Below, one piece after another: positions 4,214 to 35,990 of a stretch of 64,000 bases of DNA; position 1 is the first letter of the stretch, and the number at the start of each line of letters is the position of its first letter. Location of the stretch: contig JAMFTG010000253.1 of NCBI GenBank assembly GCA_023974075.1, forward strand, positions 1 through 64,000. The letters run 5' to 3'. The notes below the pieces were generated by a model. It was not told the DNA's origin. It searched no databases and was given only the letters and a program-made list of their open reading frames with translations. The translations under genes and the position numbers were made by a program. Source of the stretch: Chaenocephalus aceratus. Its lineage: Eukaryota; Chordata; Actinopteri; Perciformes; Channichthyidae.

Positions 4214-4405
4214 GATCATTGTTTTTGGAGCAAAGAAGGACCGATTAAAAGTAATCGCAGAGCTTCAGTCGGCAGACTACAAAGTAACTCATAAAGCTAG
4301 AAATCTAGGTGTAGTGATGGACTCAGACCTGCATTTTAACAGTCTACAATAGTTATTAGGTGTGCATACTATCACCTGAAGAACATATCTAGGATTAAAA
4401 AACGA

Positions 4406-4879
4406 ATGTCGCAACAGGATTTAGAAAAACGTGTCCATGCTTTCATCTTCAGTAGACTCGACTACTGCAATAGTGTATTCACAGGGCTCACTAAAGAATC
4501 CACCAGAAAGCTGCAGCTGATTCAGAACGCTGCTGCTCGAGTCCTCTCAAACACTAAAAGAGTGGCTCACATCAGTCCGGTTCTGAAGTCATTACACTGG
4601 CTTCCAGTCGGCCAAATAATTGATTTAAAAATACTATTGCTAGTTTTTAAATCACTAAATGGCTTAGGACCGAGGTATATAAACGATGTCCTGCATAACT
4701 ATGAACCATCCAGAAGTCTCAGGTCCTCTGGGTCGGATCTGCTCTCTGTTCCAAGAATAAGAACTAAACATGGAAAAGCAGCGTTTAGCTATTATGCTCC
4801 GACAATCTGGAACAAACTACCCGAATCGTGCACGTCCACTGAAACACTTCCTATTTTAAAATCCAGACTAAAAACATAA
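4406..4879 (+). pseudogene. L2 ORF C-terminal region
   Basis: The translation begins in the post-RT region and contains HAFIFSRLDYCNSVFTGL, LQLIQNAAARVL and LHWLPVGQIIDLKILLL, ending with a peptide like PTIWNKLPESCTST. This block after the RT domain is diagnostic of vertebrate L2 LINEs and recurs in nearly the same form at 33,144-33,530, 17,661-18,059 and 56,239-56,853. A frameshift near 4,213-4,350 separates it from the RT domain. Confidence 0.85.
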
Positions 4880-5025
4880 CTATTTTCCGCTGCTTTTAAT
4901 TGAGCTGTTTGTAAAGCACTTTGAATTGTCGCGTGCTGAAAGGTGCTGTATAAATAAAATTGCCTTGCCTTGCCTTAATCCATGACAAACTAGTGTTGAG
5001 ACCAGGAGGCAGAGTCTCAGTCTTA

Positions 5026-5281
5026 CCGGGACGGGTGGCGCAGTGGTCTGTGCATCCGATCATCAGATCAAGGGGGAGTGCTGGAAACCCGCTCCCGCCC
5101 CCACTGCGTCAGGCCGTTGTGTCCTTGGGCAAGACAATTCACCTGAACTCTCTCCTGTGGGTATTGTCCACAGTATCTGACCATTGCATGTATGATATAT
5201 GTGTAATGTGTGTATATGTAAAGCACTTTGAGTCATTGAAAAAGCGCTATAATAAATGTAAGGAATTATTATTATTATTAC
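5026..5281 (+). mobile_element. tRNA-derived SINE with an L2-like tail
   Basis: The sequence opens with GGGACGGGTGGCGCAGTGG, a good match to a tRNA A box (TGGCGCAGTGG), followed about 45 bp later by a degraded B-box region. The 3' part reads TAAAGCACTTTGAGTC, then AAAAGCGCTATAATAAATG, and ends in ATT repeats (5,269-5,281). That tail resembles the L2 LINE 3' end and suggests mobilisation by L2 machinery. It sits just downstream of an L2 end. Confidence 0.7.
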
Positions 5282-5591
5282 ACGCTTCTCTGCGCTCTCC
5301 TCCAATAAAATACCTGTGAGGTAATAATTCTCGCCTGTTGACGTTTATGAACAACCCTGAGTTTGTTATCTCTCTTAAGGAATGGGAGGCTCCAGCTATC
5401 TTGATAAACCAGTTTATGACCGGTCAACTCTCGGTCACAAAATGGTTTACGGTTGTGGGAACGCTGGCTTCGAAGCCATTAAGGGTCACACGCAAGTGAT
5501 TCAGGGTGCCCAGCTATTTAGTATATCTCCATAATATGTTTTGGGGAGAGAGAAGCGCTGCAGAGAGAGAGGCGCTGCAGAATTGATGTGG
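5282..5591. other. Unassigned sequence left of LTR element
   Basis: About 300 bases with no credible coding. With 8,287-8,459 it formed one stretch before the LTR element at 5,597-8,281 landed. The right part (8,340-8,440) has AATAAACCACCAGTGTTTGA and a CTGACTCCCCATTGCTGC stretch, reminiscent of the 3' end of an LTR. The stretch could therefore be an old solo LTR; this is an inference. Confidence 0.35.
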
Positions 5592-12396: not shown

Positions 12397-14560
12397 AGAA
12401 TAGAATAGAATAGAATTCCTTTATTGTCATCGCACCAGGTACAACGAAATTTAAAAAAAGCAATCCTCGCAGTGCATTTCCACATACAACGAATAAATAT
12501 ATTATCTATATAAACATATACACATTAAACATGCTCACACATCCATACATGCCCGCACATTATTTAAATACAGTTTACAATATAAAAAAAACAACACAGG
12601 GATGATATTTGCATCTCTGATGTCGATCAGTTCATAAGTTAATACAACTATTAAAAAGTAGTGCAGTTGGAAGTTGTAACTGTTCAGTTCAGCGTTTGAC
12701 GGTGTTCAGTTCTCGTATGGCTCTGGGGTAAAAACTGTTTTCAGTCGGTTTGTCCTTGATTGACCTGTAGCGTATACCGGAGGGCAGAAGAGCAAACAGG
12801 AAGTGTCCAGGGTGTGAAGAGTCTGCAATTATTTTGCCTGCTCTGTTTTGGCAATGTTGGCTGAAGAGTTCCTCCAGAGAAGGCAGTGAGCAGCCGATGA
12901 CCTTATGGGCTGTGTTGATGACCCTCTGAAGGGCTTTCCTGTCCTTTTCTGAGCAGCTGGCATACCACGTGGTTAGGCAATATGCCAGCACACTCTCTAT
13001 GGAGCAGCGGTAGAAAGACACCAGAAGCTTCTCCTCCAGGTTGTTTTTCCTGAGGATCCTCAGGAAGTGGAGTCGCTGCTGGGCCTTTTTCACAGATGTT
13101 GTGGTGTTGATAGACCAGGATAGATCTTCAGCAATGTGTGTGCCGAAGAACCTGAAGGTGGGAACCCTTTCCACACAGTTGCCGTTGATGTACAGTGGAT
13201 CTGGTGTTGTGCTGTTTTTCCTGAAGTCTATAATGAGTTATTTTGTTTTGATGGAGTTCAGAACAAGGTTATTATCTGAACACCACACTGCCAGTCTCTG
13301 GATTTCATCCCTGTAGGCTGACTCATCTCCTCTTGTGATCAGTCCAACCACGGTTGTGTCGTCCGCGAACTTGACGATGGTGTTGGTGGGGTGAGTGGGG
13401 GCACAGTCATAGGTGTACAGGGAGTAGAGCATGGGGCTCAGCACACAGCCTTGTGGTGAACCGGTGCTGAGTGTGAGGGTGGAGGAGAGGTGAGGGCCTA
13501 TTCTCACTGTCTGGGGGCGGTTAGTTAGGAAGTCCTTAATCCATTGGCAGATGTTTGGGGAAAATCCTAGGTCAAATAGCTTGGAAACCAATCTTCCCGG
13601 GATGACTGTATTAAAGGCAGAACTGTAATCAACAAAGAGCATCCTCACATAGCTCCCCTGGTGTTCAAGGTGGGACAGTGCACTGTGAAGTACAGTGGCG
13701 ATGGCATCCTCTGTAGACCTATTTGCTCTATACGCAAACTGATTTGGGTCGAAGGTGGGTGGGAGAATGGTTTTGATGTGCTGCAGGACCAGCCTCTCGA
13801 AACACTTCATGATGAGCGGTGTGAGTGCTACCGGACGGTAGTCGTTGAGGCTGGAGATGATGTTTTTTTTCGGCAGAGGGATGATTGTGGCAGATTTCAG
13901 GCATGAAGGGATGATGGATTTGGAGAGTGACAGGTTGAAGATCTTTGTGAAGACCTCCGTAAGTTGGTCTGCACACTCCTTCAACACCCTTCCCGTCACG
14001 CCATCAGGGCCTGCAGCTTTCCTCGGGTTCACCGCTCTGAGCACACGCCTCACATCATGCTCCTGCACCGTGAGGGTGTGACTGTTGGATGCTGGTGAGG
14101 TTGTTGTGTCTGTCTCTACTGCATTGACCTCAAAACGAGCAAAGAAACAATTAAGTTCCTCTGCCAGTGAGGCGTCCCCGTCAACCGTTGTGCTGTTATT
14201 GTTCTTGTAGTTGGTGATGTGCTGTATACCTTGCCACACCCGCCGTGGATCGTTGTTGGTGAAGTGGTCCTCAATCTTCCTCTTGTAGGCTACTTTGGCA
14301 TCCCTGATGCCTCTCTTCAGGTTGGCTCTAGCTGCACTGTATTGAGCACTATCACCAGACCTGAAGGCGATGTTTCGGCCCTTGAGGAGAGCTCTGACCT
14401 CCTTCGTCATCCAGGGCTTCTGGTTGGGGTATATCTGAATACGTTTTTCAACAGTCACATTATTCACACAGTTCTGTATATAGCAGAGTACAGTTGATGC
14501 GTACTCCTCCAAGTCCTGAACCTCAAAAATATCCCAGTTAGTCCTCACAAATCAAAAAAG
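12397..14560 (-). mobile_element. Rex-like LINE, minus strand, nearly full RT
   Basis: The 3' end at the left carries tandem ATTCT units and a TGACAATAAAGG signal (minus strand, about 12,397-12,435). The coding part fills 12,689-14,548. It is 5'-truncated at about 14,560, where unrelated sequence resumes. The family is distinct from the L2s here: its RT box is FADDTTVVGL rather than YADD and its tail reads ALLPSGIRYRSI. I favour a Rex1/Babar-type assignment, but only phylogeny would settle it. Confidence 0.8.
12689..14548 (-). pseudogene. Rex-like LINE reverse transcriptase, one internal stop
   Basis: Two same-frame ORFs (14,548-13,238 and 13,174-12,689) form one protein of about 620 residues. 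In order it shows KPWMTKEVRALLKGRN, RKAAGPDGVTGRVLKECADQ, LNDYRPVALTPLIMKCFERL, FAYRANRSTEDAI, MLFVDYSSAFNTV, GSPQGCVLSPMLYSLYTYDC, VKFADDTTVVGLI, then the C-terminal ALLPSGIRYRSI. The only visible lesion is a TAA stop (13,236-13,238) just before LIIDFRK, where family members usually have a sense codon. The endonuclease is missing because of 5' truncation. Confidence 0.85.
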
Positions 14561-15282: not shown

Positions 15283-15944
15283 GAATGAACCGACCAAATT
15301 TGGACTCAGCAGATTTCAATGTTTGGCCCCACAGGCGGAATGTCTTGGGTATTCTCTGGAGTACATTTTTTACACCTGGAAGAACGCCTCATCTAGACGG
15401 GGTAAAGAGGCTGCTTTGAAGGAGGCACGCCGGGAGGTTGCTCGCAAGCCCTGGCTCAGGAGCTTGTTGCTGGAGTGGCTACAAACCTTTTCAAGTAGCC
15501 CTGAAGAATTGGCACAAGCTTCTAACCCTTTCCTGGGATCCAACTACTGTCCTGTTGAAGGTCCACAGAGTCTCCAAAGAACCTCTAGGAGACGCAGGGC
15601 CAGGATTCCAGCCCGTGCTCCATCAGCCATGATCCCGACTTCAGTTCCGGTTTCCACAGCCATGGATCCATGCACCAGTACCGGCCCGCAGAGCTATGTT
15701 TCCTTGCTCGATTACCTGGCCCACACAGCCATGGTCCAGGCCTCTGTTCCGGTTCCAGCGGCTCCAGTTCCAACCTCAGACCTTTTCTCAGGAACCCGTC
15801 TGGCGTTTGGAGGTCCACGGAGCCTCCAAAAGGTCTCTGGAAGATGCAAGGCCAGGATTCCAGCCCGTACTCCAGCGGCTTCAGTGCCGGCCCCAGCAGC
15901 CATGGTTCCGGCCCCAGTCCTGGTCCCAGCTGCCATAGTCCCTT

Positions 15945-16440
15945 CTCTAGTCCCTTCTCTAGTCCCTACTCAATTCCTTTCTCAAGTCCTTTCTCAAGTC
16001 CCTCCTCTAGACACTTCCCTAGTCCCTTCTCCAGTCCCCCTTTTAGTCACCTCTCTAGTCCCTCCTCTAGTCCCTTCCCAAGTCCCTTCTCTAGTCCCTT
16101 CCCAAGTCCCTTATCTAGTCCCTTCTCTAGTCCCTTCTCTAGTCCCCTCTCCAGTCACCTCTCGAGTTCCATCTCTAGTACCTACTCAAGTCCCGCCTCT
16201 AGTCAATTCCCTAGTCCCATCTCTAGTCCCTCCTCTAGTCACTTCTCCAGTCCCCTCTCGAGTTCCCTCTCGAGGTCCCTCCTTTAGTCCCTGCTCTAGT
16301 CCCCTCTCTAGTTCCCCTCTCAAGTCCCCTCTCGAGTTCCCTCCTCTAGTTCCTCCTCTAGTCCCTCCTCTTGTTCCTCCTCTAGTCTCTCCTCTAGTCC
16401 CCTCTGGAGTTGCGTCTCTAGTTCCCCTCTCGAGTCACGT
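15945..16440 (+). repeat. 12-bp-period minisatellite (LVPS codons)
   Basis: Tandem variants of TCTAGTCCCTTC and TCAAGTCCCTCC repeat for about 500 bp. The 12-bp period keeps the reading frame, encoding (S/P)LVP units. An antisense reading and a third frame also stay open, which is a consequence of the repeat and not of extra genes. Confidence 0.85.
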
Positions 16441-16469
16441 CTCAAGTCCCTACCCAATGTCCTGGTCCG

Positions 16470-17073
16470 TTGGAGGTTCCGCTGGGGGTCCTGCCAACTC
16501 CATGTCCTGTCCCGTTGGCGGCCCCGTCGACTACTCCTCTGCCGGGGGTCCTACCAATCGTATGTCTGTCCCGTTGGAGGTCCCGCCGTCTACTCTCCTG
16601 CCGGGGGTCCTGCCAGCTTCTTGTCCTGTCTCGTTGGAGGTCCCGCCGTCTACTCTCCTGCCGGGGGTCCTGCCAATCCTATGTCCTGTGCCGTTGGAGG
16701 CCCTGCCGACTACTCTCCTGCCGGGGGTCCTGCCAACACTTTGTCCCGTCCCGTTGGAGGTCCCGCCGTCTGCTCTCCTGCCGGGGGTCCTGCCAGCTCC
16801 TTGTCCCATCTCGTTGGAGGTCACACCGACTGCTCTCCTGCCAGGGGTCCTGCCAACCCTTTGTCCTGTGCCGTTGGAGGCCCCGCCGACTGCTCTTCTG
16901 CCGGGGGTCCTGCCAGCTCCTTGTCCTGTCCCGTTGGAGGTCCCGCCGACTACTCTCCTGCCGGGGGTCCTGCCAACTACCTTTCTGCCGGGGGTCCTGC
17001 CAACCCTATGTCCTGTGCCGTTGGAGGTCCCGCCGACTGCTCTCCTGCCGGGGGTCCTGCCAATCCTATGTCA
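16470..17073 (+). repeat. 60-bp tandem minisatellite
   Basis: About ten 60-bp units contain the core CGTTGGAGGTCCCGCCG followed by CTCCTGCCGGGGGTCCTGCC. The period is a multiple of three, so frames stay open. The array continues after the nested insertions at 31,196-31,345 with diverged units (TGCCGGGGGTCCTGCCAACC), proving that 17,073 and 31,196 were once adjacent. Confidence 0.9.
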
Positions 17074-18022
17074 ATCAATCAATCAATGTTTATTTATATA
17101 GCCCAATATCACAAATGTTACATTTGTCTCAGTGGTCTTCACAGTGTGTACAGAATATCAGTATGACAATACGACACCCTCTGTCCTTAGACCCTCACAT
17201 CGTACAAGGAAAAACTTCCAAAGAAAACCCAGTTTAAAGGGAAAAATGGGAGAAACCTCAGGGAGAGCAACAGAGGAGGGATCCCTCTCCCAGGACGGAC
17301 AGACGTGCAATAGATGCCGTGTGTAAATTGAAAAGATAATACATTTGCAACATAGGTAGTCCAGATGTTTGGAAATGCATGTGTGTATAATAGGAAGATG
17401 AATCCACGAGGATATCCATCCAGGACCTATGATCCAGGACCACAGCCACGACTCAAGATCCAGCGCTCGCGATCCAGGACACAGGACCGCAGGATCATCC
17501 ATGACTCCGGATCCCAGCGTATATAGACACCAAAAAGAAGGACATTTGGGGAAGCTGGGTTAATCGGAACATGAGAGTACACGGGTATAGACAGAGAGAA
17601 GGAAGAAGTAAGATGTCCCCCGACAAACTAAGCCTATATCAGCAAAACTAGGGGCTGAATCTAATCAGCCCTAACTATAAGCTTTATCAAAAAGGAAGGT
17701 CTTAAGCACACTCTTAAAAACGGATAGGGTGTCTGCCGCCCGAACACAAACTGGAAGCTGATTCCACAAATGTGGAGCTTGATAAGAAAAGGCTCTGGCT
17801 CCATTGTACTTTTAGAGATTCTAGGAACAACCAACAACCCTGCATTCTTGGAACGCAATGCCCTAGTAGGACAGTAGGGTATAATGAGTTCTTTAAGGTA
17901 AGATGGCGCCTGCCCATTAAGGGCTTTGTAGGCGAGAAGAAGAATTTTCAATTCTATCCTGTGTTCTATAGGGAGCCAGTGTAAGGCAGCCAGAACAGGA
18001 GTAATGTGGTCCCTTTTCCTAA
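17074..18022 (-). mobile_element. L2-type LINE, minus strand, 3' part
   Basis: On the minus strand the LINE ends in an ATATAAATAAACATTG stretch with tandem ATTG units (17,070-17,095). Host minisatellite ATGTC precedes it at 17,069-17,073 and restarts at about 31,196 (ATGTCCTGTTCC), a 5-bp target duplication. The C-terminal peptide (17,661-18,059) reads HITPVLAALHWLPIEHRIEL and KILLLAYKALNGQAPSYLKE. The coding sequence continues upstream only at 30,734, because the tyrosine-recombinase element interrupts the LINE at 18,023. Confidence 0.85.
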
Positions 18023-18209
18023 CATACCCTAGGGACCAGAGGGTACAATGGTTGGACATTTACTACCGGCCGCGGTCTGCCTAGTGCCAGGGTCCATATA
18101 ACCGACCGCAATGCATAGCGGGAAGTCGGTTATATAGACATCAACAAAATAAGTGTTTAACGGTGACTAGTTTATGCGGGGAAAAGAGTGCTCAAAATCG
18201 GATTCAACT
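18023..18209. repeat. Left-end segment, duplicated at 20,346
   Basis: The 187-bp stretch starting ACCCTAGGGACCAGAGGGT and running through CCGGCCGCGGTCTGCC and ATAACCGACCGC is repeated almost exactly at about 20,349-20,535. The 386-bp array lies between, so about 2.3 kb has been tandemly duplicated, or the segment is itself a high-order repeat unit. Confidence 0.75.
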
Positions 18210-20290
18210 GGCCATTTCATCCACACCTCACGACTCCCATCAAAAGTGATTGAAATGTACAGGAATCTGTACATTTCATCCACATTTGACGACCCGAGCA
18301 GGGTGACTTTGTTACCCAGGAATAAGTGTCTGAAAGTCGGGGAAGATTACTTTAAACACAGGTTACACATGGCTGTATTACCCAGCAATTAGTGTGTGAA
18401 AGATGGGTAAGTTTGCTGTGAATTTAAGGGAGATATGGCCCTTTCAAACAGGGAGATGTACACGGCTTTATTACCCAGGAATAAGTGTCTTAAAGTCGGG
18501 GAAGATTACTTTAAATGCATGGTGCACATGGCTGTATTACCCATGAGTTAGTGTGTGAAAGCTGGGTAAGTTTGATGTGAATTTAAGGAAGATATGGCCA
18601 TTTCATCCACACCTCACGACTCCCATCAAAAGTGATTGAAATGTACAGGAATCTGTACATTTCATCCACATTTGACGACCCGAGCAGGGTGACTTTGTTA
18701 CCCAGGAATAAGTGTCTGAAAGTCGGGGAAGATTACTTTAAACACAGGGTACACATGGCTGTATTACCCAGCAATTAGTGTGTGAAAGATGGGTAAGTTT
18801 GCTGTGAATTTAAGGGAGATATGGCCTTTTCAAACAGGGAGATGTACACGGCTTTATTACCCAGGAATAAGTGTCTTAAAGTCGGGGAAGATTACTTTAA
18901 ATGCATGGTGCACATGGCTGTATTACCCATGAGTTAGTGTGTGAAAGCTGGGTAAGTTTGATGTGAATTTAAGGAAGATATGGCCATTTCATCCACACCT
19001 CACGACTCCCATCAAAAGTGATTGAAATGTACAGGAATCTGTACATTTCATCCACATTTGACGACCCGAGCAGGGTTACTTTGTTACCCAGGAATAAGTG
19101 TCTGAAAGTCGGGGAAGATTACTTTAAACACAGGGTACACATGGCTGTATTACCCAGCAATTAGTGTGTGAAAGATGGGTAAGTTTGCTGTGAATGTAAG
19201 GGAGATATGGCCCTTTCAAACAGTGAGATGTACACGGCTTTATTACCCAGGAATAAGTGTCTTAAAGTCGGGGAAGATTACTTTAAATGCATGGTGCACA
19301 TGGCTGTATTACCCATGAGTTAGTGTGTGAAAGCTGGGTAAGTTTGATGTGAATTTAAGGAAGATATGGCCATTTCATCCACACCTCACGACTCCCATCA
19401 AAAGTGATTGAAATGTACAGGAATCTGTACATTTCATCCACATTTGACGACCCGAGCAGGGTGACTTTGTTACCCAGGAATAAGTGTCTGAAAGTCGGGG
19501 AAGATTACTTTAAACACAGGGTACACATGGCTGTATTACCCAGCAATTAGTGTGTGAAAGATGGGTAAGTTTGCTGTGAATTTAAGGGAGATATGGCCCT
19601 TTCAAACAGGGAGATGTACACGGCTTTATTACCCAGGAATAAGTGTCTTAAAGTCGGGGAAGATTACTTTAAATGCATGGTGCACATGGCTGTATTACCC
19701 ATGAGTTAGTGTGTGAAAGCTGGGTAAGTTTGATGTGAATTTAAGGAAGATATGGCCATTTCATCCACACCTCACGACTCCCATCAAAAGTGACTGAAAT
19801 GTACAGGAATCTGTACATTTCATCCACATTTGACGACCCGAGCAGGGTGACTTTGTTACCCAGGAATAAGTGTCTGAAAGTCGGGGAAGATTACTTTAAA
19901 CACAGGGTACACATGGCTGTATTACCCAGCAATTAGTGTGTGAAAGATGGGTAAGTTTGCTGTGAATTTAAGGGAGATATGGCCCTTTCAAACAGGGAGA
20001 TGTACACGGCTTTATTACCCAGGAATAAGTGTCTTAAAGTCGGGGAAGATTACTTTAAATGCATGGTGCACATGGCTGTATTACCCATGAGTTAGTGTGT
20101 GAAAGCTGGGTAAGTTTGATGTGAATTTAAGGAAGATATGGCCATTTCATCCACACCTCACGACTCCCATCAAAAGTGATTGAAATGTACAGGAATCTGT
20201 ACATTTCATCCACATTTGACGACCCGAGCAGGGTGACTTTGTTACCCAGGAATAAGTGTCTGAAAGTCGGGGAAGATTACTCAGGGTATA
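18210..20290. repeat. Satellite array A, 386-bp monomer
   Basis: GGCCATTTCATCCACACC starts units at 18,210, 18,596, 18,982, 19,368, 19,754 and 20,140, an exact 386-bp period, giving five full copies and a partial one with very few differences. Each monomer contains a perfect dyad: 12-bp arms TGAAATGTACAG and CTGTACATTTCA separated by GAAT (first at 18,251-18,278). It also has several TTACCCAG...CTGGGTAA hairpins. The monomer looks like the shorter unit of array E plus about 159 bp. Confidence 0.95.
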
Positions 20291-20345
20291 CAGGACTTTC
20301 ACCCTCCCCCGTTGGCACTTAGCCGTTTTTCGAGAATCATCCATA

Positions 20346-21300
20346 CATACCCTAGGGACCAGAGGGTACAATGGTTGGACATTTACTACCGGCCGCGGTC
20401 TGCCTAGTGCCAGGGTCCATATAACCGACCGCAATGCATAGCGGGAAGTCGGTTATATAGACATCAACAAAATAAGTGTTTAACGGTGACTAGTTTATGC
20501 GGGGAAAAGAGTGCTCAAAATCGGATTCAACTGGCCATTTCATCCACACCTCACGACTCCCATTAAAAGTGATTGAAATGTACAGGAATCTGTACATTTC
20601 ATCCACATTTGATGACCCGTCATGGGTGACTTTCTTCCCCAGGAATTAGTGTCTGAAAGCTGGGTAAGATTACTTTAAATACTGGGTACACATGGCTTCA
20701 TTACCCATGAATTAGTGTGTGAAAGCTGGGTAAGTTTGATGTGAATTTAAGGAAGATATGGCCATTTCATCCACACCTGATGACTCCCATTAAAAGTGAT
20801 TGAAATGTACAGGAATCTGTCCATTTCATTCACATTTCTTACCCAGGAATTAGTGTCTGAAAGCTGGGTAAGATTACTTTAAATACTGGGTACACATGGC
20901 TTCATTACCCATGAATTAGTGTGTGAAAGCTGGGTAAGTTTGATGTGAATTTAAGGGAGATATGGTCATTTCATCCACACCTCACGACTCCCATACAAAG
21001 TGATTGAAATGTACAGGAATCTGTCCATTTCAATCACATTTGATGACCCGTCCAGGGTGACTTTCTTCCCCAGGAATTAGTGTCTGAAAGCTGGGTAAGA
21101 TTACTTTAAATGCAGTGTGCACATGACTGTATTACCCAGCAATTAGTGTGTGAAAGATGGGTAAGTTTGATGTGAATTTAAGGAAGATATGGCCATTTCA
21201 TCCACACCTCACGACTCCCATACAAAGTGATTGAAATGTACAGGACTCTGTCCATTTCATCCACATTTGACGACCCGTCAAGGGTGGCTTTCTTAACCAA
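20346..21300. repeat. Degenerate satellite array A2
   Basis: It opens with the duplicate of the left-end segment (20,349-20,535). Shorter monomers (roughly 170-230 bp) related to arrays A and E follow, with GGCCATTTCATCCACACC and GAAATGTACAGGAATCTGTC. Spacing is irregular and divergence higher than in array A, suggesting an older or less homogenised part. Confidence 0.85.
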
Positions 21301-21594
21301 TATGTACACCGACAAAGCCACCTCTTCGGGGCCGCTCCAAGACCCCCAAAACACGGACGCAGCAGCCCCAGCATCTCTCCCTGACATGAGCAAACAGGTT
21401 ATTTCAGACTTCCATGAAATACCCCGGGGAAAAGCACCTCTCTGTGGCCGCTCCAAGACCCCCAAAACACGGACTAAGGAGCTCCAGGATCTCTCCCTGA
21501 CATAAGTACTTCCAGAACCTCGCGCACCTTGGGTCCCCGGGCCCCCGAACTTAAGCACTCCCCCACGGACTAAACCAAGATGATCACACCCTCA
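21301..21594. other. Transition segment between satellite arrays
   Basis: About 290 bases include two copies of GGCCGCTCCAAGACCCCCAA (21,330 and 21,448), each followed by AACACGGAC. The stretch at about 21,536-21,600 (CCCGAACTTAAGCACTCC, then CGGACTAAACC) is repeated near 30,370-30,420, so it is a module shared by both flanks of the element. No coding is seen. Confidence 0.6.
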
Positions 21595-22654
21595 AGAATC
21601 TCGTGCCCCTGGGAATCTTAAAGGGGGGTGTATTTTGCGGTGCTTAATCGTCCGCCCATCGGCACCCATAGTCGGCCTTCTTCACAGCAGCAGCACCCAC
21701 CCTTCAGTGGAGGATTTTTCTCGTGCCCCTGGCAACACTTAAAGGGGGTCTACTTTGCGGTGCTTTACCGTCCGCCCATCGGCACCCATAGTCGGCCTTC
21801 TTGACAGCAGCACAACCCACCCTTCAGTGGAGGATTTTTCTCGTGCCCCTGGCAACACTTAAAGGGGGTCTACTTTGCGGTGCTTTACCGTCCGCCCATC
21901 GGCACCCATAGTCGGCCTTCTTCACAGCAGCACCACCCACCCTTCAGTGGAGGATTTTTCTCGTGCCCCTGGCAACACTTAAAGGGGGTCTACTTTGCGG
22001 TGCTTTACCGTCCGCCCATCGGCACCCATAGTCGGCCTTCTTGACAGCAGCACCACCCACCCTTCAGTGGAGGATTTTTCTCGTGCCCCTGGCAACACTT
22101 AAAGGGGGTCTACATTGCGGTGCTTTACCGTCCGCCCATCGGCACCCATAGTCGGCCTTCTTGACAGCAGCACCACCCACCCTTCAGTGGAGGATTTTTC
22201 TCGTGCCCCTGGCAACACTTAAAGGGGGTCTACTTTGCGGTGCTTTACCGTCCGCCCATCGGCACCCATAGTCGGCCTTCTTGACAGCAGCACCACCCAC
22301 CCTTCAGTGGAGGATTTTTCTCGTGCCCCTGGCAACACTTAAAGGGGGTCTACTTTGCGGTGCTTTACCGTCCGCCCATCGGCACCCATAGTCGGCCCTC
22401 TTGACAGCAGCACCACCCACCCTTCAGTGGAGGATTTTTCTCGTGCCCCTGGCAACACTTAAAGGGGGTCTACTTTGCGGTTCTTTACCGTCCGCCCATC
22501 GGCACCCATAGTCGGCCTTCTTGACAGCAGCACCACCCACCCTTCAGTGGAGGATTTTTCTCGTGCCCCTGGCAACACTTAAAGGGGGTCTACTTTGCGG
22601 TGCTTTACCGTCCGCCCATCGGCACCCATAGTCGGCCTTCTTCACAGCACCACC
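21595..22654. repeat. Satellite array B, 120-bp monomer
   Basis: Units of exactly 120 bp begin TCGTGCCCCTGGCAACAC at 21,721, 21,841, 21,961 and so on to 22,561, with a variant first unit at 21,601; about nine copies, nearly identical. Each contains CCGCCCATCGGCACCCATAG and CAGTGGAGGATTTTTC. One or two diverged units occur at 30,440-30,625 on the other side of the gene, and a degraded one at 22,700-22,800. Confidence 0.95.
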
Positions 22655-22833
22655 TGCCCTGCTGGAGGTTCACACTTTAACTTTTTTACCCTCTTCTACC
22701 TTACAAATCATCCCACACTTGAGCACTCCTCACTCGGACTAAACACCTCCATGCTATCGTGCCCCTGGAGATCTTAAAGGAAAAAAACCCATAGTGGGCT
22801 TTAAAAACAGAAGACTTAGTAATTTTAACAAAC

Positions 22834-22839
22834 TTTATT
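22834..22839 (-). promoter_or_regulatory. Polyadenylation signal AATAAA of the recombinase gene
   Basis: AATAAA on the minus strand lies 30 bases downstream of the recombinase stop codon (22,869). Distance and position suit a eukaryotic 3' end. Inferred from sequence only. Confidence 0.5.
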
Positions 22840-22868
22840 TACAGTAATATTGACAGTAATAAATACAT

Positions 22869-25243
22869 TCACACAGGATATAAAGTATTTACAAGGGGAC
22901 TGATTATAACAACACACTGCATATTTACAAGTTGATCACTGGCAAAAGTGGGTGAAGTTGGGGCAGAGTATGGCACCCTCTCTTCACCCATGTCTGAGGG
23001 GCTGTGTTCGGCCAGTGACTGGTCCCTCGTCGCTCGCCAAGCGTTGACATGTCTTGGTAGGGAGTCTTGGTAGGGAGCCGGGCTGTGCTCCTCTCCAGAG
23101 ATGTCACTGTCGATGTCAATACCCGCAAAAGTGTCTTCATTTCCCGCTGCTACTGCTGTCGATGCCGCCGCCGCTGCTTGCAGTGACTCTGTGAAGAGCA
23201 ACCGAATGTCCGCAGCCTCCTTCAAAGAAGGATTATTCGCGTAAAATTTGTCCGCAGTTGCAGTGTTGTGACACATGAAATCACTCACTCGTTGGCGGTT
23301 GCCTTTGTCTTGAAACCTCTTCGCATTATCGGCGTGGACTGTGCGGAGGTCGGTGAAGTTAATGGGACCGTGGAGCCCCACATCAGCCCATGCCAACCTC
23401 AGGGAGTAGGCAAGCTTCCTGAACGGGTTCTTCCCCTCTGTGTATAGAAAGTAACGGCTCTGGGTGCAGGTCAGCGTACCCTTGATTTCCAGCCACCTCT
23501 TCATCCATCCAAATTCTTCTACGGTGAGGTACAGCTGCGCTTCCCCGAACGCGTTGGCCGTCTTGTGGTTGCTTACCTGTTATGACAGAGTTAGAGAGTG
23601 TCAATACAATGTCAATCATGCATATAACTGCCAGAATAAATGCATTGATTAATAGCACTCACATGAACCAGGTAGCCGAAGGCAGTGCCAGTTGTATCCG
23701 CCTTTCGGACCTCGGCGTTGGTCATGTTGGAGTAGACCCCCGGACGATGGCCGTAAATGCAGCTCCAATGAAGAGTCATATACCCATAGAGCAGGGTCCG
23801 GGTTGCGGTAGTCGGATTGCTGGCCATCACATCCAGGAGCTGAGGGATGCGAGTGGTGGTCGAAGTCAAGCATGTCATTAGGTCGTTGTGGCTCGGCAGA
23901 CCTTCCATCTTGTCACGCTTCACTTGCATCTGGTGGATAAGTACTTTTCTCTTCAGGGACTTCAAGATGGCAACTACTTCCCGTTTGATTAAAATCATGT
24001 CGGTTTGGCTGAGCCTGCTCCCCTTGCATGGTGTGTCGGTCATGTACTTGAGAAAGTGTGATATATTCTTGATGTAGAAGTCGGAGGTCGTGACCTGAAG
24101 GCTTGACTTCATCAGGCTCCGGGACCACCCACGTATCCTCTTGAGATCCCTCAAAAAGAGCCAGTCAGACAGGCGATTGAACCCGTGAGCCATGAAACTT
24201 AGGAACGACTTCACTCTGCTCAGTTTGGAAACTGTGTTTTCCTGGAGCCTCACTGGTGGGTCGATACCTGCATAATGCTCCCGGTATCCTTGAAGATACT
24301 CCTCTGTGAAATATAAACAGTACTTTAATGACAACACATCGTGTGTTACAGAAACTGCATGTGTCACATAGCCAACACACTTACCCATGACCCGTGGGAA
24401 TGTGATGTCCCGCATTATATTTCCCCGGCCCCTGCCCCGGAACCAGGGGGAATGGATGGGAGGGGAGGTTGACGAGGCCTCGGTATGCATGGATGCAGGC
24501 TCTGAGGAGCTGGATGAATGTGTGTGAGAGCCAGTGGGGGACTCGCTGCAGGCGGGAATGGGAGACTTGCTGCAGGAGGGACCTTTCGACTTGGACAGCC
24601 TCGTTGGTGTCGACTCTGTTCGGGGTCGTTTCTTCAGAATGACCCGCTCTTGTTCCTCCCCATCGAACGCGGGCATGTCCCCGGCCCGCTGATCCATCCT
24701 CTGTCGCTTGTGCTTTATCCTCTGCTGCAACTTGCAGCGCAGGGATTTCACCTCAGCAGCATATATGTCCCGCTGAGCCCTCACTGCGTTTGCCTCCAGC
24801 CTCCATTCTTTGCAGTCCGGGTTGTCACATTCATTCACCGGGGACAAGGGTGGAGGTTGTGACAGTATATCGTCGTCTGCCACCATGTCAACAGCCCAAG
24901 CGGTAATCATTTCTATGGTGGGGTTTGTCATTCGGAGTTCATAAAGCTCCTTCTTGGCCACTGTCATTTTCAGTTTATTTCGAACCACATGTAGTTCCTC
25001 CCGGGCCAGCTCAACATGGTCTCTGGCCAAGTGGCGATCCAGCCTTGTGCCCCGGTACTCGCATCCCAGAATGGTACAGGGATGGAGCCTAATGTTGGTC
25101 CGTCCGTTGGCCAACAACAGCAGAATTTTTCTTTCAACCAAGTTACGCACACCATGGCGCCTCTGCAGGTGCTTGCTCAGGGCATGGTAGGAACTATTAC
25201 AGATCGGACAACGGACCGCCATCCGACCTGTATTCTTGAGCAT
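22869..25243 (-). CDS. Zinc-finger tyrosine-recombinase-like protein (three exons, intact)
   Basis: Exons 25,243-24,385, 24,303-23,663 and 23,576-22,869 are joined by GT-AG introns of 81 and 86 bp, giving 735 residues without stops or frameshifts. The N-terminus has two zinc fingers: CPICNSSYHALSKHLQRRH and CTILGCEYRGTRLDRHLARDH. A Ser/Pro-rich linker follows. The C-terminal half fits a tyrosine recombinase: Arg box in YGHRPGVYSNMTNAEV, Lys in SNHKTANAFGEAQLYL, second Arg in FTDLRTVHADNAKR, and His plus Tyr nucleophile in FMCHNTATADKFY. Such enzymes move DNA via covalent 3'-phosphotyrosine intermediates. The start could lie upstream, since the frame is open to 25,543. Crypton affinity is inferred. 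Confidence 0.7.
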
Positions 25244-25522
25244 TTCGGTACCGGGAAATGTCACCAGAATCGTGGGTAAAAAAGAAGGAAGCGTGAAAAG
25301 ACTCACGAAAGATGCACTCAACTTATTTTCAAACCGGTGTTTGTTTTCATTTGCATCATGGTGCGGTGTCCCATTTAGGCACTCGTTAAGCGGGCAGAGA
25401 TCCCTGTAATCTACCCTCACGTTCCTCCAGAGTCTGGTTCTCCCAAAGGATACCCGACAGTTTCGGGTACGACAACGTGGGGATAACAGTAGCCTCCGGG
25501 CGATCCGTCCCCCAGGGGGACG
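25244..25522 (-). promoter_or_regulatory. Probable 5' flank of the recombinase gene
   Basis: This is the 280 bases between the likely start codon and the GC-rich array C. The recombinase frame remains open through it on the minus strand, so it is either 5' UTR/promoter or additional N-terminal coding. No TATA box could be assigned with confidence. Array C directly upstream is strongly GC- and CpG-rich. Confidence 0.35.
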
Positions 25523-26470
25523 GAGGCATTGAACCCCTCTCACCTGCTCCCGGAGGAGGCAGGGGAGTCAGGGGAGTCAGGTACCCAGAGGGCGCACGGT
25601 GGACGGCCAGGGCGAGGCCGCCACACCGCACTGGAGTCAGGGTCCCGGTGAGGCGCAGGACGGAGCACCCGGCAGTAGCCTCCAGCAGACCCCCGCGCGG
25701 TTCCCTCGGAAGAGGTGGAGAGGCGGGTGTTTCCATCTGCTGGCGGGTTGCCGGGGTAACAGCATCCTCCGGGGAGGCATTGAACCCCTCTCACCTGCTC
25801 CCGGAGGAGGCAGGGGAGTCAGGGGAGTCAGGTACCCAGAGGGCGCACGGTGGACGGCCAGGGCGAGGCCGCCACACCGCGCTGGAGTCAGGGTCCCGGT
25901 GAGGCGCAGGACGGAGCACCCGGCAGTAGCCTCCAGCAGACCCCCGCGCGGTTCCCTCGGAAGAGGTGGAGAGGCGGGTGTTTCCATCTGCTGGCGGGTT
26001 GCCGGGGTAACAGCATTCTCCGGGGAGGCATTGAACCCCTCTCACCTGCTCCCGGAGGAGGCAGGGGAGTCAGGGGAGTCAGGTACCCAGAGGGCGCACG
26101 GTGGACGGCCAGGGCGAGGCCGCCACACCGCGCTGGAGTCAGGGTCCCGGTGAGGCGCAGGACGGAGCACCCGGCAGTAGCCTCCAGCAGACCCCCGCGC
26201 GGTTCCCTCGGAAGAGGTGGAGAGGCGGGTGTTTCCATCTGCTGGCGGGTTGCCGGGGTAACAGCATCCTCCGGGGAGGCATTGAACCCCTCTCACCTGC
26301 TCCCGGAGGAGGCAGGGGAGTCAGGTACCCAGAGGGTGGACGGCCAGGGCGAGGCCGCCACACCGCGCTGGAGTCAGGGTCCCGGTGAGGCGCAGGACGG
26401 AGCACCCGGCAGTAGCCTCCAGCAGACCCCCGCACGGTTCCCTCGTCCCTCGGAAGGGGTGGAGAGGCGG
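25523..26470. repeat. Satellite array C, GC-rich 251-bp monomer
   Basis: Units starting GAGGCATTGAACCCCTCTC occur at 25,523, 25,774, 26,025 and about 26,276, a 251-bp period; the last is shortened by small deletions. The repeat is very GC-rich with many CpGs. All six frames show long ORFs, but 251 is not a multiple of three, so each frame drifts from copy to copy; the ORFs reflect composition. The array lies just upstream of the recombinase gene's 5' end. Confidence 0.95.
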
Positions 26471-26489
26471 GTGTTTTCATCTGCTGGCC

Positions 26490-27008
26490 AGAGTCAGAAA
26501 AAGTATAAGTTAACTTTTTGGAAGAACCATAGAAAAGGGTGAAAATGGATAAATTGTATCCGAAAATAGTGTTCCATAAGGCGGGTAGAGTCCCCTGACA
26601 ACTCCCCTACCTTCCTCCAGAGTCAGAAAAAGTATAAGTTAACTTTTTGGAAGAACCATAGAAAAGGGTGAAAATGGATAAATTGTATCCGAAAATAGTG
26701 TTCCATAAGGCGGGTAGAGTCCCCTGACAACTCCCCTACCTTCCTCCAGAGTCAGAAAAAGTATAAGTTAACTTTTTGGAAGAACCATAGAAAAGGGTGA
26801 AAATGGATAAAATGTATCCCAAAATAGTGTTCCATAAGGCGGGTAGAGTCCCCTGACAACTCCCCTACCTTCCTCCAGAGTCAGAAAAAGTATAAATTAA
26901 CTTTTTGGAAGAACCATAAAAAAGGGTGAAAATGGATAAAATGTATCCCAAAATAGTGCCCCTTGAGGCGGGTAGAGTCCCCTGACAACTCCCCTTGCAT
27001 TCCTCCAG
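26490..27008. repeat. Satellite array D, 129-bp monomer
   Basis: GAGTCAGAAAAAGTATAA recurs at 26,491, 26,620, 26,749 and 26,878, four units of 129 bp. They contain AACTTTTTGGAAGAACCATA and GGCGGGTAGAGTCCCCTGAC. The last unit is the most diverged. It abuts the GC-rich array C. Confidence 0.95.
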
Positions 27009-27499
27009 ACACCAGTTTGAAAACTTAAAGTTTTGTGAGAACCAGGATTGGGGGTCCTCTTGGCAACAATTTCATCCGATCCAAAGTGCTCCTGAGGCGG
27101 ATACATTCCTCCATGATTTCCCCATCATGTGAAAATAGCTCGTTTTTTTCAAAGTGCTCTCAAAAACCGGGTTTCCGATTTCGTGCAGACGGTAGCTTGG
27201 AAAAGATGAATGAATTTTTTGGACGGAGGAGGGGAGCTCTGGTTTCCCCTCTCCGTTGTAAATTGCAACGGGGGAGTGGAAAAGTCTCCGGGGCTTCGTC
27301 CCGAAGCGCCGAAGACTTGACCCCCTCCCCCGTTGGCACCGTTTTTACAGAATTTTCAAAAACTTCATTTTTGATTATTTTAACATATAATTGACCGTTT
27401 TCTTTACTTTTTTTTGCTTTCCACGGGTGGGGACGCATGGCAGGCCGCCTATGAGCTTCCAAATTCGGCCTGGAACCTCCGGGAATTATGGGTTAAGCT
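27009..27499. other. Non-repetitive spacer between arrays D and E
   Basis: About 490 bases of single-copy-looking sequence. The stretch at 27,319-27,345 (CCCCCTCCCCCGTTGGCAC) is shared with the segments at 20,304 and 30,300 that end arrays A and E. No convincing coding is present. Confidence 0.5.
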
Positions 27500-30290
27500 C
27501 CATATACTGACGACTCCCATTAAAAATGCATGAAATGTACAGGAATCTGTCCATTTCAATCACATTCGATGACCCCATTAAAAATGCATGAAATGTACAG
27601 GAATCTGTCCATTTCAATCACATTCGACGACCACATTAAAAATGCATGAAATGTACAGGAATATGTCCATTAAAAATGCATGAAATGTACAGGAATATGT
27701 CCATTTCATCCACATTCGACGACCCCATTAAAAATGCATGAAATGTACAGGAATCTGTCCATTTCAATCACATTTGATGACCGGTCCAGGGTGACTTTGT
27801 TACCCAGGAATTAGTGTCTGAAAGCTGGGTAAGATTACTTTAAATGCAGGGTACACATGGCTCTATTACCCAGCAATTAGTGTGTGAAAGCTGGGTAAGT
27901 TTGATGTGAATTTAAGCAAGATATGGCCATTTCATCCACACCTGATGACTCCCATTAAAAATGCATGAAATGTACAGGAATCTGTCCATTTCATCCACAT
28001 TCGACGACCCCATTAAAAATGCATGAAATGTACAGAAATCTGTCCATTTCAATCACATTTGATGACCGGTCCAGGGTGACTTTGTTACCCAGGAATTAGT
28101 GTCTGAAAGCTGGGTAAGATTACTTTAAATGCAGGGTACACATGGCTCTATTACCCAGCAATTAGTGTGTGACAGCTGGGTAAGTTTGATGTGAATTTAA
28201 GCAAGATATGGCCATTTCATCCACACCTGATGACTCCCATTAAAAATGCATGAAATGTACAAGAATCTGTCCATTTCAATCACATTTGATGACCGGTCCA
28301 GGGTGACTTTGTTACCCAGGAATTAGTGTCTGAAAGCTGGGTAAGATTACTTTAAATGCAGGGTACACATGGCTCTATTACCCAGCAATTAGTGTGTGAA
28401 AGCTGGGTAAGTTTGATGTGAATTTAAGCAAGATATGGCCATTTCATCCACACCTGATGACTCCCATTAAAAATGCATGAAATGTACAGGAATCTGTCCA
28501 TTTCAATCACATTTGATGACCGGTCCAGGGTGACTTTTTTACCCAGGAATTAGTGTCTGAAAGCTGGGTAAGATTACTTTAAATGCAGGGTACACATGGC
28601 TCTATTACCCAGCAATTAGTGTGTGAAAGCTGGGTAGGTTTGATGTGAATTTAAGCAAGATATGGCCATTTCATCCACACCTGATGACTCCCATTAAAAA
28701 TGCATGAAATGTACAGGAATCTGTCCATTTCATCCACATTCGACGACCCCATTAAAAATGCATGAAATGTACAGGAATCTGTCCATTTCAATCACATTTG
28801 ATGACCGGTCCAGGGTGACTTTGTTACCCAGGAATTAGTGTCTGAAAGCTGGGTAAGATTACTTTAAATGTAGGGTACACATGGCTCTATTACCCAGCAA
28901 TTAGTGTGTGAAAGCTGGGTAAGTTTGATGTGAATTTAAGCAAGATATGGCCATTTCATCCACACCTGATGACTCCCATTAAAAATGCATGAAATGTACA
29001 GGAATCTGTCCATTTCATCCACATTCGACGACCCCATTAAAAATGCATGAAATGTACAGGAATCTGTCCATTTCAATCACATTTGATGACCGGTCCAGGG
29101 TGACTTTGTTACCCAGGAATTAGTGTCTGAAAGCTGGGTAAGATTACTTTAAATGCAGGGTACACATTGCTCTATTACCCAGCAATTAGTGTGTGACAGC
29201 TGGGTAAGTTTGATGTGAATTTAAGCAAGATATGGCCATTTCATCCACACCTGATGACTCCCATTAAAAATGCATGAAATGTACAGGAATCTGTCCATTT
29301 CAATCACATTTGATGACCGGTCCAGGGTGACTTTGTTACCCAGGAATTAGTGTCTGAAAGCTGGGTAAGATTACTTTAAATGCAGGGTACACATGGCTCT
29401 ATTACCCAGCAATTAGTGTGTGAAAGCTGGGTAAGTTTGATGTGAATTTAAGCAAGATATGGCCATTTCATCCACACCTGATGACTCCCATTAAAAATGC
29501 ATGAAATGTACAGGAATCTGTCCATTTCAATCACATTTGATGACCGGTCCAGGGTGACTTTGTTACCCAGGAATTAGTGTCTGAAAGCTGGGTAAGATTA
29601 CTTTAAATGCAGGGTACACATGGCTCTATTACCCAGCAATTAGTGTGTGAAAGCTGGGTAAGTTTGATGTGAATTTAAGCAAGATATGGCCATTTCATCC
29701 ACACCTGATGACTCCCATTAAAAATGCATGAAATGTACAGGAATCTGTCCATTTCAATCACATTTGATGACCGGTCCAGGGTGACTTTGTTACCCAGGAA
29801 TTAGTGTCTGAAAGCTGGGTAAGATTACTTTAAATGCAGGGTACACATGGCTCTATTACCCAGCAATTATTGTGTGAAAGCTGGGTAAGTTTGATGTGAA
29901 TTTAAGCAAGATATGGCCATTTCATCCACACCTGATGACTCCCATTAAAAATGCATGAAATGTACAGGAATCTGTCCATTTCAATCACATTTGATGACCG
30001 GTCCAGGGTGACTTTGTTACCCAGGAATTAGTGTCTGAAAGCTGGGTAAGATTACTTTAAATGCAGGGTACACATGGCTTTATTACCCAGCAATTAGTGT
30101 GTGAAAGCTGGGTATGATTGATGTGAATTTAAGGAAGATATGGCCCTTTCAAACACACCTCACGACTCCCATCAAAAGTGATTGAAATGTACAGGAATCT
30201 GTCCATTTCATTCACATTTGACGACCCGAGCAGGGTGACTTTGTTACCCAGGAATAAGTGTCTGAAAGCCGGGGAAGATTACTCAGGGTA
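27500..30290. repeat. Satellite array E, 227/284-bp monomers
   Basis: GGCCATTTCATCCACACCTG marks units at about 27,924, 28,209, 28,436, 28,664, 28,948, 29,234, 29,461, 29,688 and 29,916. Spacing alternates between about 227 and 285 bp, the longer form having an extra copy of a 57-bp piece (CATTAAAAATGCATGAAATG plus the following dyad). Units carry GAAATGTACAGGAATCTGTC, an imperfect version of array A's dyad, and TTACCCAGC...GCTGGGTAA hairpins. The array ends in the same TCAGGGTATACAGGAC segment as array A. Confidence 0.95.
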
Positions 30291-30733
30291 TACAGGACTT
30301 TCACCCCTCCCCCGTTGGCACTTAGCCGTTTTTCGAGAATCATCCATACTTCCATAACATGAGACCCCCGAACCCCGGAATTAAGCACTCCCCAACGGAC
30401 TAAACCCAGATGTTCACACCCTCCAGAACTTAATGCCCCTGGTGAGTCAGAAAAGAGGTGTATTTTGTGGTTCTTTATCGTCCGCTCATCGGCACCCATA
30501 GTCGGCCTCTTTCACAGCAGCAGCACCCACCCTCCATGGAGGGTATTCTCGTGCCCCTGGCAACACTTGAAGGGGGTGTATTTTGCGGTGCTTTATCGTC
30601 CGCCCATCGGCACCCATAGTCGGTCCAGTCGCTGACAGGTACTTGACATCGGAGGTTGACATCGCATTTCCATTGAGCGGACATGCGTACATCTGAAGGG
30701 CAAGTTCCACGGTACCTCCGTCTCCAAGGCTGA
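30291..30733. other. Right-end segment of the recombinase element
   Basis: It contains the module shared with 21,536-21,720 (CCCGGAATTAAGCACTCC, then CTCGTGCCCCTGGCAACAC and CCGCCCATCGGCACCCATAG), i.e. one to two diverged 120-bp units. A further 110 bp, with no counterpart at the left end, runs to the junction with the L2 at about 30,733. Confidence 0.6.
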
Positions 30734-31195
30734 CATTTGCCTTACTCTGGTTAGTACACGAGCCGCAGCATTTTGAATCAGCTGAAGCGACTTGATTGAC
30801 TTCTTGGTACTCCCTGATAATAAAGAGTTACAATAATCCAGCCTAGAAGTAACAAATGCATGGACTAGTTTCTCTGCATCGTTTTGAGGCAAGATATGCC
30901 TGATTTTTGCAATGTTACGTAGATGGAAGTAGGCGGTCCTTGAAATTGATTTTATGTGGGCGTTAAAGGATAAATCCTGATCAAATATAACACCAAGATT
31001 CCTTACAGTCTCACTGGAGGCCAAATTAATGCCATCCATAGTTAGTATATCTTTAGATAATTTGTTTCGTAGATTCTTCGGGCCAAGTACAATAACTTCA
31101 GTTTTGGTCGTGTTTAACATCAAAAAGTTTAAGGTCATCCACGTTTTTAAGTCCTTAAGGCAGTCTTGAATTTTATTTAGATTATTAATTTCAAT
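30734..31195 (-). pseudogene. L2-type LINE, minus strand, 5' part (RT C-terminus)
   Basis: The minus strand encodes CLKDLKTWMTLNFLMLNTTK, TEVIVLGPKNL, VRNLGVIFDQDLSFNAHIKS, LVHAFVTSRLDYCNSLLSG and LQLIQNAAARVLTRV, exactly the block missing upstream of 18,022. It is 5'-truncated at 31,195, where the LTR element's minisatellite resumes. The same L2 family occurs in plus orientation at 32,395-33,888 with very similar sequence. Confidence 0.85.
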
Positions 31196-31865
31196 GATTA
31201 ATGTCCTGTTCCTCTGGGGGTCCCGCCGACAACTCTTCTGCCGGGGGTCCTGCCAACCCCTTGTCCTGTTCCAATTGGAGGCCCCACCATCACCTGTCTC
31301 ACCGGGGGTCCTGCCAACTACTGGTCCTCTTCCGTGGGGGATCCTGCCGAAGCCTGTCCCACTGGCTCCGGTTCCTGTTCGGCCGACACCGGGTCCTGCC
31401 CGGCCTCCGGAGCTATCTGGTCTTCGCCCTCGAGCCCGGCCCCCTGAGAGCCCGGCCCCCTGAGAGCCGCGGTCTTCTCCCTCGAGCCCGGCCCCCTGAG
31501 TGCCGCGGTCTTCGTCCTCGGGCCCGGCCCCCTGACTCTTCCTGCCGCTGCTTTTGCCCTCATGCACGGCCCCCTGAGTTTGCCCGCTGTGGCCTTCGCC
31601 CCTTTTTGAACTTTGCCTTGCCCCCAGGCCGTCCACCCGAGACCCCCTCCTTGGTCTCTGCCTTGCTCCCGGGCCTTCCGCCCGAGACCCCCCTCCTTGG
31701 TCTCTGCCTTTCCCCCGGGCCGTCCGCCCGAGACCCGTCCTCCAGACCCCCTCCACCCACCCTTTCTTGGCCCTAGTTATGTGTCCTCCCTCCAGTCCCC
31801 CTCCACCCACCCTGCTGGACCTTTTTTTTTGGGACGTCTGGGATCCGTCCCTTGAGGGGGGGTTC
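31196..31865 (+). pseudogene. Right part of the LTR element interior
   Basis: It restarts with units of the 60-bp minisatellite (to about 31,345), then low-complexity Pro/Arg-rich sequence with repeated GGCCCCCTGAG and CCGCCCGAGACCC. Several frames are open through it. It ends in the polypurine tract CTTGAGGGGGGGTTC beside the right LTR. No protease, RT or integrase motif occurs. Confidence 0.65.
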
Positions 31866-34690: not shown

Positions 34691-34978
34691 GCACATTATT
34701 CCTTGCATAAAAATTAGGGCTGTCAGTCGATTAAAATAGTTAATCGCGATTAATCGCAAATTAATCGCACATTTTGTATCTGTTCTAAATGTACCTTAGA
34801 GGAATATTTTTCAAGTTTTTAATACTCTTATCAACATATGAGCGGACACATATGCTTTATGCTAATGTTTATTATCATTTGAACAATGACAAATATTCGA
34901 ATGAATATTAATCACAACAACCTCAAATATTGGCCTCAATTCAATCTGGAACCTCTCTCATACAATAATACAATACAG

Positions 34979-35135
<157 letters not shown>

Positions 35136-35851: not shown

Positions 35852-35856
<5 letters not shown>

Positions 35857-35914
<58 letters not shown>

Positions 35915-35919
35915 GTGTG

Positions 35920-35990
<71 letters not shown>
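35857..35990 (+). repeat. TG dinucleotide microsatellite
   Basis: About 135 bp of TG repeats with two TTG interruptions near 35,911-35,920. It lies inside the innermost hAT-type element. Confidence 0.98.

Follow-up and report, generated by a model that had tools for sequence, protein, structure and literature searches.

Cryptons are DNA transposons that encode a tyrosine recombinase without a reverse transcriptase and for which a circular intermediate has been proposed; fungal Cryptons bear direct repeats of 4–6 bp at their ends and include non-autonomous copies, and for animal Cryptons no terminal repeats and no C-terminal domain are reported to have been found (PMC3212892). Some CryptonV families insert in microsatellites (PMC8869645). 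Starships range from about 20 to 700 kb and hold many genes, and Hephaestus Starships target TTAC(N7)A (PMC12153272). Internal tandem repeats are dispersed by the Tetris foldback element of Drosophila virilis, for which longer satellite-like arrays are also described, and by the Cg_HINE Helentrons of oyster (PMC4079207, PMC7492417), and truncated plant Helitrons are described in tandem, a single 3′ end being accompanied by many 5′ ends (PMC12628747). Here we describe a 12,723-bp element of the icefish Chaenocephalus aceratus, found in a 64,000-nucleotide stretch of DNA (hereafter the window; assembly GCA_023974075.1, contig JAMFTG010000253.1, positions 1–64,000), in which satellite arrays surround a single recombinase-like gene. 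With a probability of roughly 0.85, we consider it a complete DNA transposon mobilized by the tyrosine recombinase that it encodes, a view supported by modules that travel together with fixed ends and insert precisely, without target duplication beyond one ambiguous C.

The element extends from CATACCC on the left to GCCTTA(C) on the right (18,023–30,745, forward strand), as delimited by the ends common to other copies and by the empty form of its L2 target. On the left, six loci in query orientation (L001–L004, L006, and L007) agree from CATACCC onward and diverge before it, while the right end reads ...GGCTGACATTTGCCTTAC at 30,745, beyond which flanks diverge. The C at the element edge is common with the target, and 18,023–30,744 plus a target C is an equally valid description. 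An earlier interpretation of the window without database searches (hereafter the sequence-only reading) had set the limits at 18,023 and 30,733, of which the left is exact and the right falls 12 bp short. It had also listed five satellite families totaling 8–9 kb, and Tandem Repeats Finder recovered arrays at all of the places given, their union covering 8,061 of 12,723 bp (63%); two of these families, with units of 386 and 227/285 bp, are however one and the same. Short inverted repeats lie near both ends (TACCCT-N9-AGGGTA at 18,025–18,045 and AAGGC-N8-GCCTT at 30,726–30,744) and are possible recombinase-binding arms.

We searched the assembly from which the window comes (1,064,297,438 bases in 3,032 contigs; below, C-numbers denote contigs and L-numbers loci that were read) with patterns tolerating 2 or 3 mismatches, using reversed patterns as a control. 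This yielded 397 left ends (218 + 179, internal ones included), 250 right ends (139 + 111), and 277 recombinase boxes (134 + 143), against 0 for each control. Places were listed for the first 100 matches of a pattern, exact ones first, and the pairing, cluster, and contig-end results below rest on these partial lists. The first 1,001 bases from 18,023 are matched in full, at 97–100%, by each of the 40 candidates scored.

Eight long copies (window included) and one short copy were drawn from the top-scoring left- and right-end loci, and both ends and the order of modules are common to all eight long ones, such that full-length copies do exist elsewhere in this genome. In the coordinates of the window, this order begins with the left end (18,023–18,208, from the comparison of copies), the 386-bp array (18,209–20,281), a piece resembling the right-end segment RE1 (20,281–20,345, a copy of 30,283–30,348), a second, internal left end (20,346–20,531), a 386/227-type block (20,532–21,299, with a 204/227 block at 20,631–21,299), and the 120-bp array (21,599–22,654), followed by the gene in reverse orientation. 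It continues with the 251-bp array (25,522–26,488, 70% GC), the 129-bp array (26,488–27,009), a unique spacer present in 8/8 long copies (27,010–27,508), the 58/227/285-bp array (27,509–30,283), RE1 (30,283–30,350), and the right end RE2 (30,351–30,745, from the comparison of right-end loci); arrays were delimited with Tandem Repeats Finder, and the 386/227 block, the 120-bp array, the last array, and RE1 also by comparing copies. This array order, which the sequence-only reading had proposed to check in other copies, holds in 8/8 long copies, except that one or two arrays are absent in two of them: the C71 copy has no 251-bp array, and the C361 copy lacks the 251-bp and 129-bp arrays together with the 5′ part of the gene. 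Array length varies considerably, from 3 to 9 matched pieces in the first 386-bp array and from 1 to 13 in the 227-bp array. The second left end, which the sequence-only reading had overlooked, is present because a module consisting of left end, 386-bp array, and 66 bp of right-end sequence is duplicated within the unit; two independent insertions at 18,023 and 20,346 can be rejected, as the double left end also occurs in the seven other long copies.

We scored the pairing of ends for 73 right ends, namely 69 of the 72 listed up to C71 plus four others; the rows left out, one on C49 and two on C58, have no listed left end there. Among the places listed, 52 of these 73 have a left-end partner on the same strand (out of 106 left ends scored), with a median span of 9,776 bp (range 1,061 to 59,583), although some of the paired left ends are internal (7 of the 30 pairs with flanks read). 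A listed gene box lies within 41 of 48 pairs >5 kb, on the opposite strand every time, and in none of the 4 shorter listed pairs, and the succession of gene, 129-bp units, and right end was found in 19/19 scorable pairs. Common ends, module order, and end pairing in other copies rule out a chance clustering of unrelated repeats. Right-end segments at 30 loci are 96.2–100% identical to that of the window; since top-scoring copies were sampled, the true divergence is larger. Short copies without the gene and the 120-, 251-, and 129-bp arrays (one of 1.8 kb on C22, two head to tail on C3) retain both ends and may be deletion products, as loss between two RE1 copies would yield this form. The C3 pair (L121, C3:38881670-38884680) borders 129-bp satellite at one flank and L2 at the other, unlike flanks that suggest a rearrangement, and a 1.06-kb "copy" on C5 is a deletion derivative beginning at an internal left end.

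The L2 target of the window (left part 17,063–18,022, right part 30,746–31,200, outer edges placed by eye) occurs elsewhere in the genome without the element, confirming the proposed insertion into an L2. Of the 2,963 places found for this empty site, the 100 listed all read TTTCCTAACTCTGGTTAG; the total is no pure count of empty sites since the pattern also fits the right junctions of filled ones. Similarly, 22 of 30 right-end loci run into the same L2 sequence, which is no measure of L2 preference because the right-end query held 55 L2 bases. Two other targets have empty counterparts: joined flanks of the C17 copy match across all 206 bases at 37 of 40 scored places, and those of the C71 copy across all 321 bases at three places. 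The latter (C71:140884, 147366, and 195240) lack the insert and represent duplicates, tandem or segmental, of the target locus on C71. At the junction, alignments to an L2 site, a C17-type repeat, and two C71 paralogues are all free of gaps, and insertion thus adds the element and at most the ambiguous C; no target duplication was found at these three loci.

Next, we evaluated target preference from the flanks of the 30 pairs and nine copies, i.e., 39 sites. Those whose left end is internal (7) were dropped, as were 7 that repeat the L2 site (among the latter, L080 and L082 have a relative's left end on the right). The 25 distinct sites that remain have left flanks reading ..TTCCCTTA|C, with C at −6, −5, and −4 (18, 20, and 21 sites, respectively), T at −3 (23 sites), and A at −1 (20 sites); two of them, C22a and C22b, have the same repeat on the left. 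On the right, for the 20 non-tandem sites, A is found at +1 in 16 (P 1e-5), T at +2 in 12 (P 7e-4), and A at +8 in 10 (P 0.06). TTAC occurs at 14/25 sites, T[T/A]AC at 20/25, and T[TA]AC(N7)A at 11/25, or 7/20 without tandem sites. The resulting consensus, about TTYCCTWAC|AT, resembles the element's own right end: TTTGCCTTA is matched at ≥6 of 9 bases by 14/25 sites, compared to 1.4% of random windows (20,000 windows from five flanks), and by 13/23 without the doubtful L094, whose left flank is another copy's right end, and L106, whose left flank is satellite sequence without the motif.

At 5 of the 25 sites, the right flank is a left end, belonging either to this element or to a relative, a pattern that we interpret from these junctions as stacking at the element's own attachment site. 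Head-to-tail copies are joined as GCCTTAC|ATACCC, equal to the joint expected of a circle. Right-end/left-end joints were counted at 57 places (31 + 26, 18 exact), of which 34 read ATTTGCCTTAC, 15 have the right-end variant ATTTTCCTTAC before the left end, and the other 8 resemble ordinary target flanks. The right flanks of L037, L061, L069, L085, and L113 consist of left ends of diverged relatives (e.g., ATACTCTAGGGACTTGTGGGTACACTGGG) directly after the right end, and hence several related families use one attachment site.

The gene responsible for these movements would be the one located centrally on the minus strand, reversed relative to the left end. Two short GT-AG introns are predicted, and their removal leaves an uninterrupted frame of 735 codons, in line with the single intact gene postulated by the sequence-only reading. 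Predicted exon 1 (24,385–25,243) encodes C2H2-like zinc fingers and a long helix, exon 2 (23,663–24,303) the motif GHRPG, and exon 3 (22,869–23,576) the motifs LRT, CH, and KFY. A database protein from the icefish Pseudochaenichthys georgianus (P0002), the best match at 99% identity, omits the same intron stretches; matches in Gymnodraco acuticeps follow at 85–86%. The predicted structure of the 735-residue protein resembles tyrosine recombinases, as had been surmised from the sequence. In an alignment of 11 teleost sequences, R489 is invariant, and K521, R594, H619, and Y628 are each kept in ≥90% of the sequences having the column; P0003 is without K521, and P0014 stops before R594. The frame is intact in four of the eight long copies (window, C1144, C73, and C17), broken in three, and truncated in one. 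Sequence profiles proved less informative. The Pfam scan gave weak rows only, including for the zinc fingers, whose C2H2-like features are nonetheless visible in exon 1, and NCBIfam and PHROGs scans returned weak unrelated rows only. A PDB sequence search returned 10 sequences up to E 1, none of them a recombinase, with a short eS1 match as the best (E 0.0027). The recombinase domain of captains, which lie at the 5′ end of Starships, is DUF3435. No captain-type Pfam domain was detected at E 0.1 among the 11 members, nor was a DUF3504 match, a result still compatible with kinship to Cryptons, and the Pfam scan detected no Crypton-derived domain. The remaining open reading frames of ≥120 aa lie in or next to satellites, making this the only gene with recognizable features; three of them scanned against Pfam gave no match, and no reverse transcriptase or DDE gene was found among them. 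A DIRS or Ngaro retrotransposon is accordingly rejected, as no reverse transcriptase accompanies the recombinase.

The satellites could be captured host satellites, i.e., passive passengers tied to the gene by history and not by function, an alternative to which we assign a substantial minority share of the probability. The widely variable copy number within arrays, the absence of one or two families in two long copies, and the persistence of both ends in short copies devoid of gene, 120-, 251-, and 129-bp arrays all fit this idea. However, the 386/227 family (4,349 matches genome-wide) adjoins both ends, and the 120-bp unit (2,527 matches) is related to RE2, both suggesting that the arrays grew out of sequence belonging to the element. 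Units in the places listed also group with other parts of the element. On C1, the first 100 units of the 386/227 type fall into 8 clusters, every one of them accompanied by a 120-bp array; for the 129-bp type (769 matches genome-wide), the first 100 units fall into 61 clusters, none with more than 6 exact units, and a listed right end follows within 6 kb downstream of 37 of these clusters, the remaining 24 being unassigned. The 386/227, 120-bp, and 129-bp satellites were never seen as a long free array among the matches listed; the 251-bp unit was not included in this search.

In a second alternative, which we view as unlikely, the arrays serve the element by carrying or mimicking attachment cores, either as binding arrays or as landing pads. 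The element's own 129-bp satellite forms the flank at 2/25 distinct sites (L060 and L114), and also at L006 and L121, and one copy (C16:43355358-43365840, L051 and L052) lies within a tandem repeat whose units, CACTTACATACC, are close to the element's joint. A weight matrix built from 19 other sites placed the best position of the 386-bp array in the top 0.002% of the window, with ranks of 0.006% for the 227-bp and 0.04% for the 129-bp array. Yet each rank is that of the top position among the 1,000 to 5,500 in its array and so exceeds chance only three- to tenfold, the best 386-bp position belongs to a single unit with a substitution, and the 120- and 251-bp arrays give no signal.

That another enzyme, such as a DDE transposase or a Helitron, mobilizes the element with the gene as a passenger is improbable. 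The function of the gene is deduced from sequence and fold, and gene-less short copies exist, both of which would suit such a scenario, but a gene box lies between the ends in most long pairs and insertion is precise and core-directed, as expected of a tyrosine recombinase. A cut-and-paste DDE transposon is rejected by the absence of both target duplication at the three loci with empty sites and any terminal inverted match above chance (the longest inverted run at the ends is 4 bases, equalled in 89% of shuffles). A Helitron or Helentron is rejected because the only recognizable gene has a predicted tyrosine-recombinase fold, whereas those elements encode a Rep/helicase protein; a non-autonomous Helentron would lack this gene, and is disfavored as ends and empty sites fit the recombinase. 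Finally, spread by segmental duplication or recombination between repeats instead of transposition is very improbable and fails as a sole mechanism: several copies do lie in clusters and duplicated stretches (C71) and L121 has unlike flanks, but flanks differ up to the same base at many loci, and gap-free empty sites at three loci come with a common target motif.

Returning to a transposon moved by its own recombinase, we propose that the enzyme would excise the element in circular form, joined at TTTGCCTTAC|ATACCCTAGGG, and that this circle would recombine with a chromosomal site that matches it. Because a resident copy would complete such a site with its left end, new copies would stack beside old ones. 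Between constant ends, the internal arrays would gain and lose units through unequal exchange or slippage, so that each jump would plant six short arrays. On rare occasions, the module of left end, 386-bp array, and RE1 may expand into a long higher-order array, for which a copy on C2 is the candidate example. This copy spans 59.6 kb near a contig end, with 16 left ends on one strand (12 to 62 kb), and the list places a single right end at 2,680 and a single gene box at 7,786 on this contig; a 3.8-kb sample consists of the left end, 386-bp units, and RE1 in repetition, and the outermost left end has the target-like flank GACTTCCCTTA. The element, typically about 10 kb long, has thus reached dozens of places as one unit, spreading satellites as internal cargo and at times making their arrays longer. 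The suggestion that it seeds satellite DNA stands for dispersal within the element and for enlargement in at least one copy, and does not extend to free-standing arrays, of which no long one was among the matches listed.

We also evaluated chromosomal placement on 18 contigs >10 Mb of known length. Among the matches listed, 11 of 76 gene boxes lie ≤100 kb from a contig end, compared to 0.43 expected, and are distributed over 8 of 36 ends; clustered copies are non-independent, and a contig end is not necessarily a telomere. Neither TTAGGG nor CCCTAA was detected at the start of C2 (3.0 kb) or of C1 (1.2 kb). The 43-Mb contig C1 starts at about base 5 of a left end (L120, C1:1-1200), and further copies follow within 27 kb of the contig start.

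Around the insertion, a 60-bp repeat array with open frames flanks the L2 on both sides (16,484–17,062 and from 31,201), indicating a nesting of 60-bp array, then L2, then element. A coding-like 12-bp repeat (15,936–16,451) precedes this array, a 436-codon frame at 13,238–14,548 (minus strand) resembles a LINE reverse transcriptase by eye, and two long GT/TG dinucleotide runs lie at 34,978–35,134 and 35,855–35,990.

The arrival of satellites at new places is a long-standing question, and with vehicle, motor gene, target, and empty sites all identified, satellite dispersal and later expansion become traceable copy by copy. The recombinase family, labeled "uncharacterized protein" in the listed fish entries, is likely an integrase with a defined target and possibly a tool, and the element may account for part of the repeat mass at icefish contig ends. 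No such element was described in the open-access titles and abstracts listed by our searches, although a named Repbase entry is possible, and the combination of autonomous recombinase, five satellite families, defined target, self-stacking, and a 60-kb form was likewise not found among them. The main text of two reviews on satellites derived from transposons has no mention of Cryptons or tyrosine recombinases, and 33 pattern matches in viral contigs included no confirmed relative.

Among known systems, the element works like a Crypton or a Starship and is a candidate member of either group at most. As in Cryptons, it is a DNA transposon with a recombinase only, with conserved R, K, R, H, and Y and presumably a circular intermediate; it has no long terminal repeats, and short direct repeats would serve as recombination sites, its CCTWAC being comparable to the 4–6 bp direct repeats reported for fungal Cryptons (PMC3212892). 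Unlike Cryptons, 63% of it consists of satellites from five families, and it has zinc fingers and no Crypton-derived Pfam domain. With Starships, it has in common a large size and one tyrosine recombinase moving cargo, and its target recalls the TTAC(N7)A given for Hephaestus (PMC12153272), although A at +8 is found in only 10 of 20 sites (P 0.06), whereas its cargo is satellite DNA instead of many protein-coding genes, and it has neither a captain-type Pfam match nor terminal inverted repeats. We put it at about even odds that it represents an unrecognized lineage in teleosts, in which large transposons with a tyrosine recombinase would be the functional equivalent, in animals, of Starships. 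On this reading, the satellite cargo would have arisen from the element's own ends, and the element would plant arrays at TTAC-type sites, stack head to tail through its attachment site, and by module expansion found long higher-order arrays near chromosome ends. The C2 copy, with 16 left ends and one listed right end, is reminiscent of tandem plant Helitrons (PMC12628747), but the enzyme is a different one and, in the C2 sample, a single internal module was expanded. Transposons that carry satellites are already known; Tetris and Cg_HINE are non-autonomous foldback or Helentron elements with one, exceptionally two, repeat families, whereas the element described here combines five with an intact recombinase gene.

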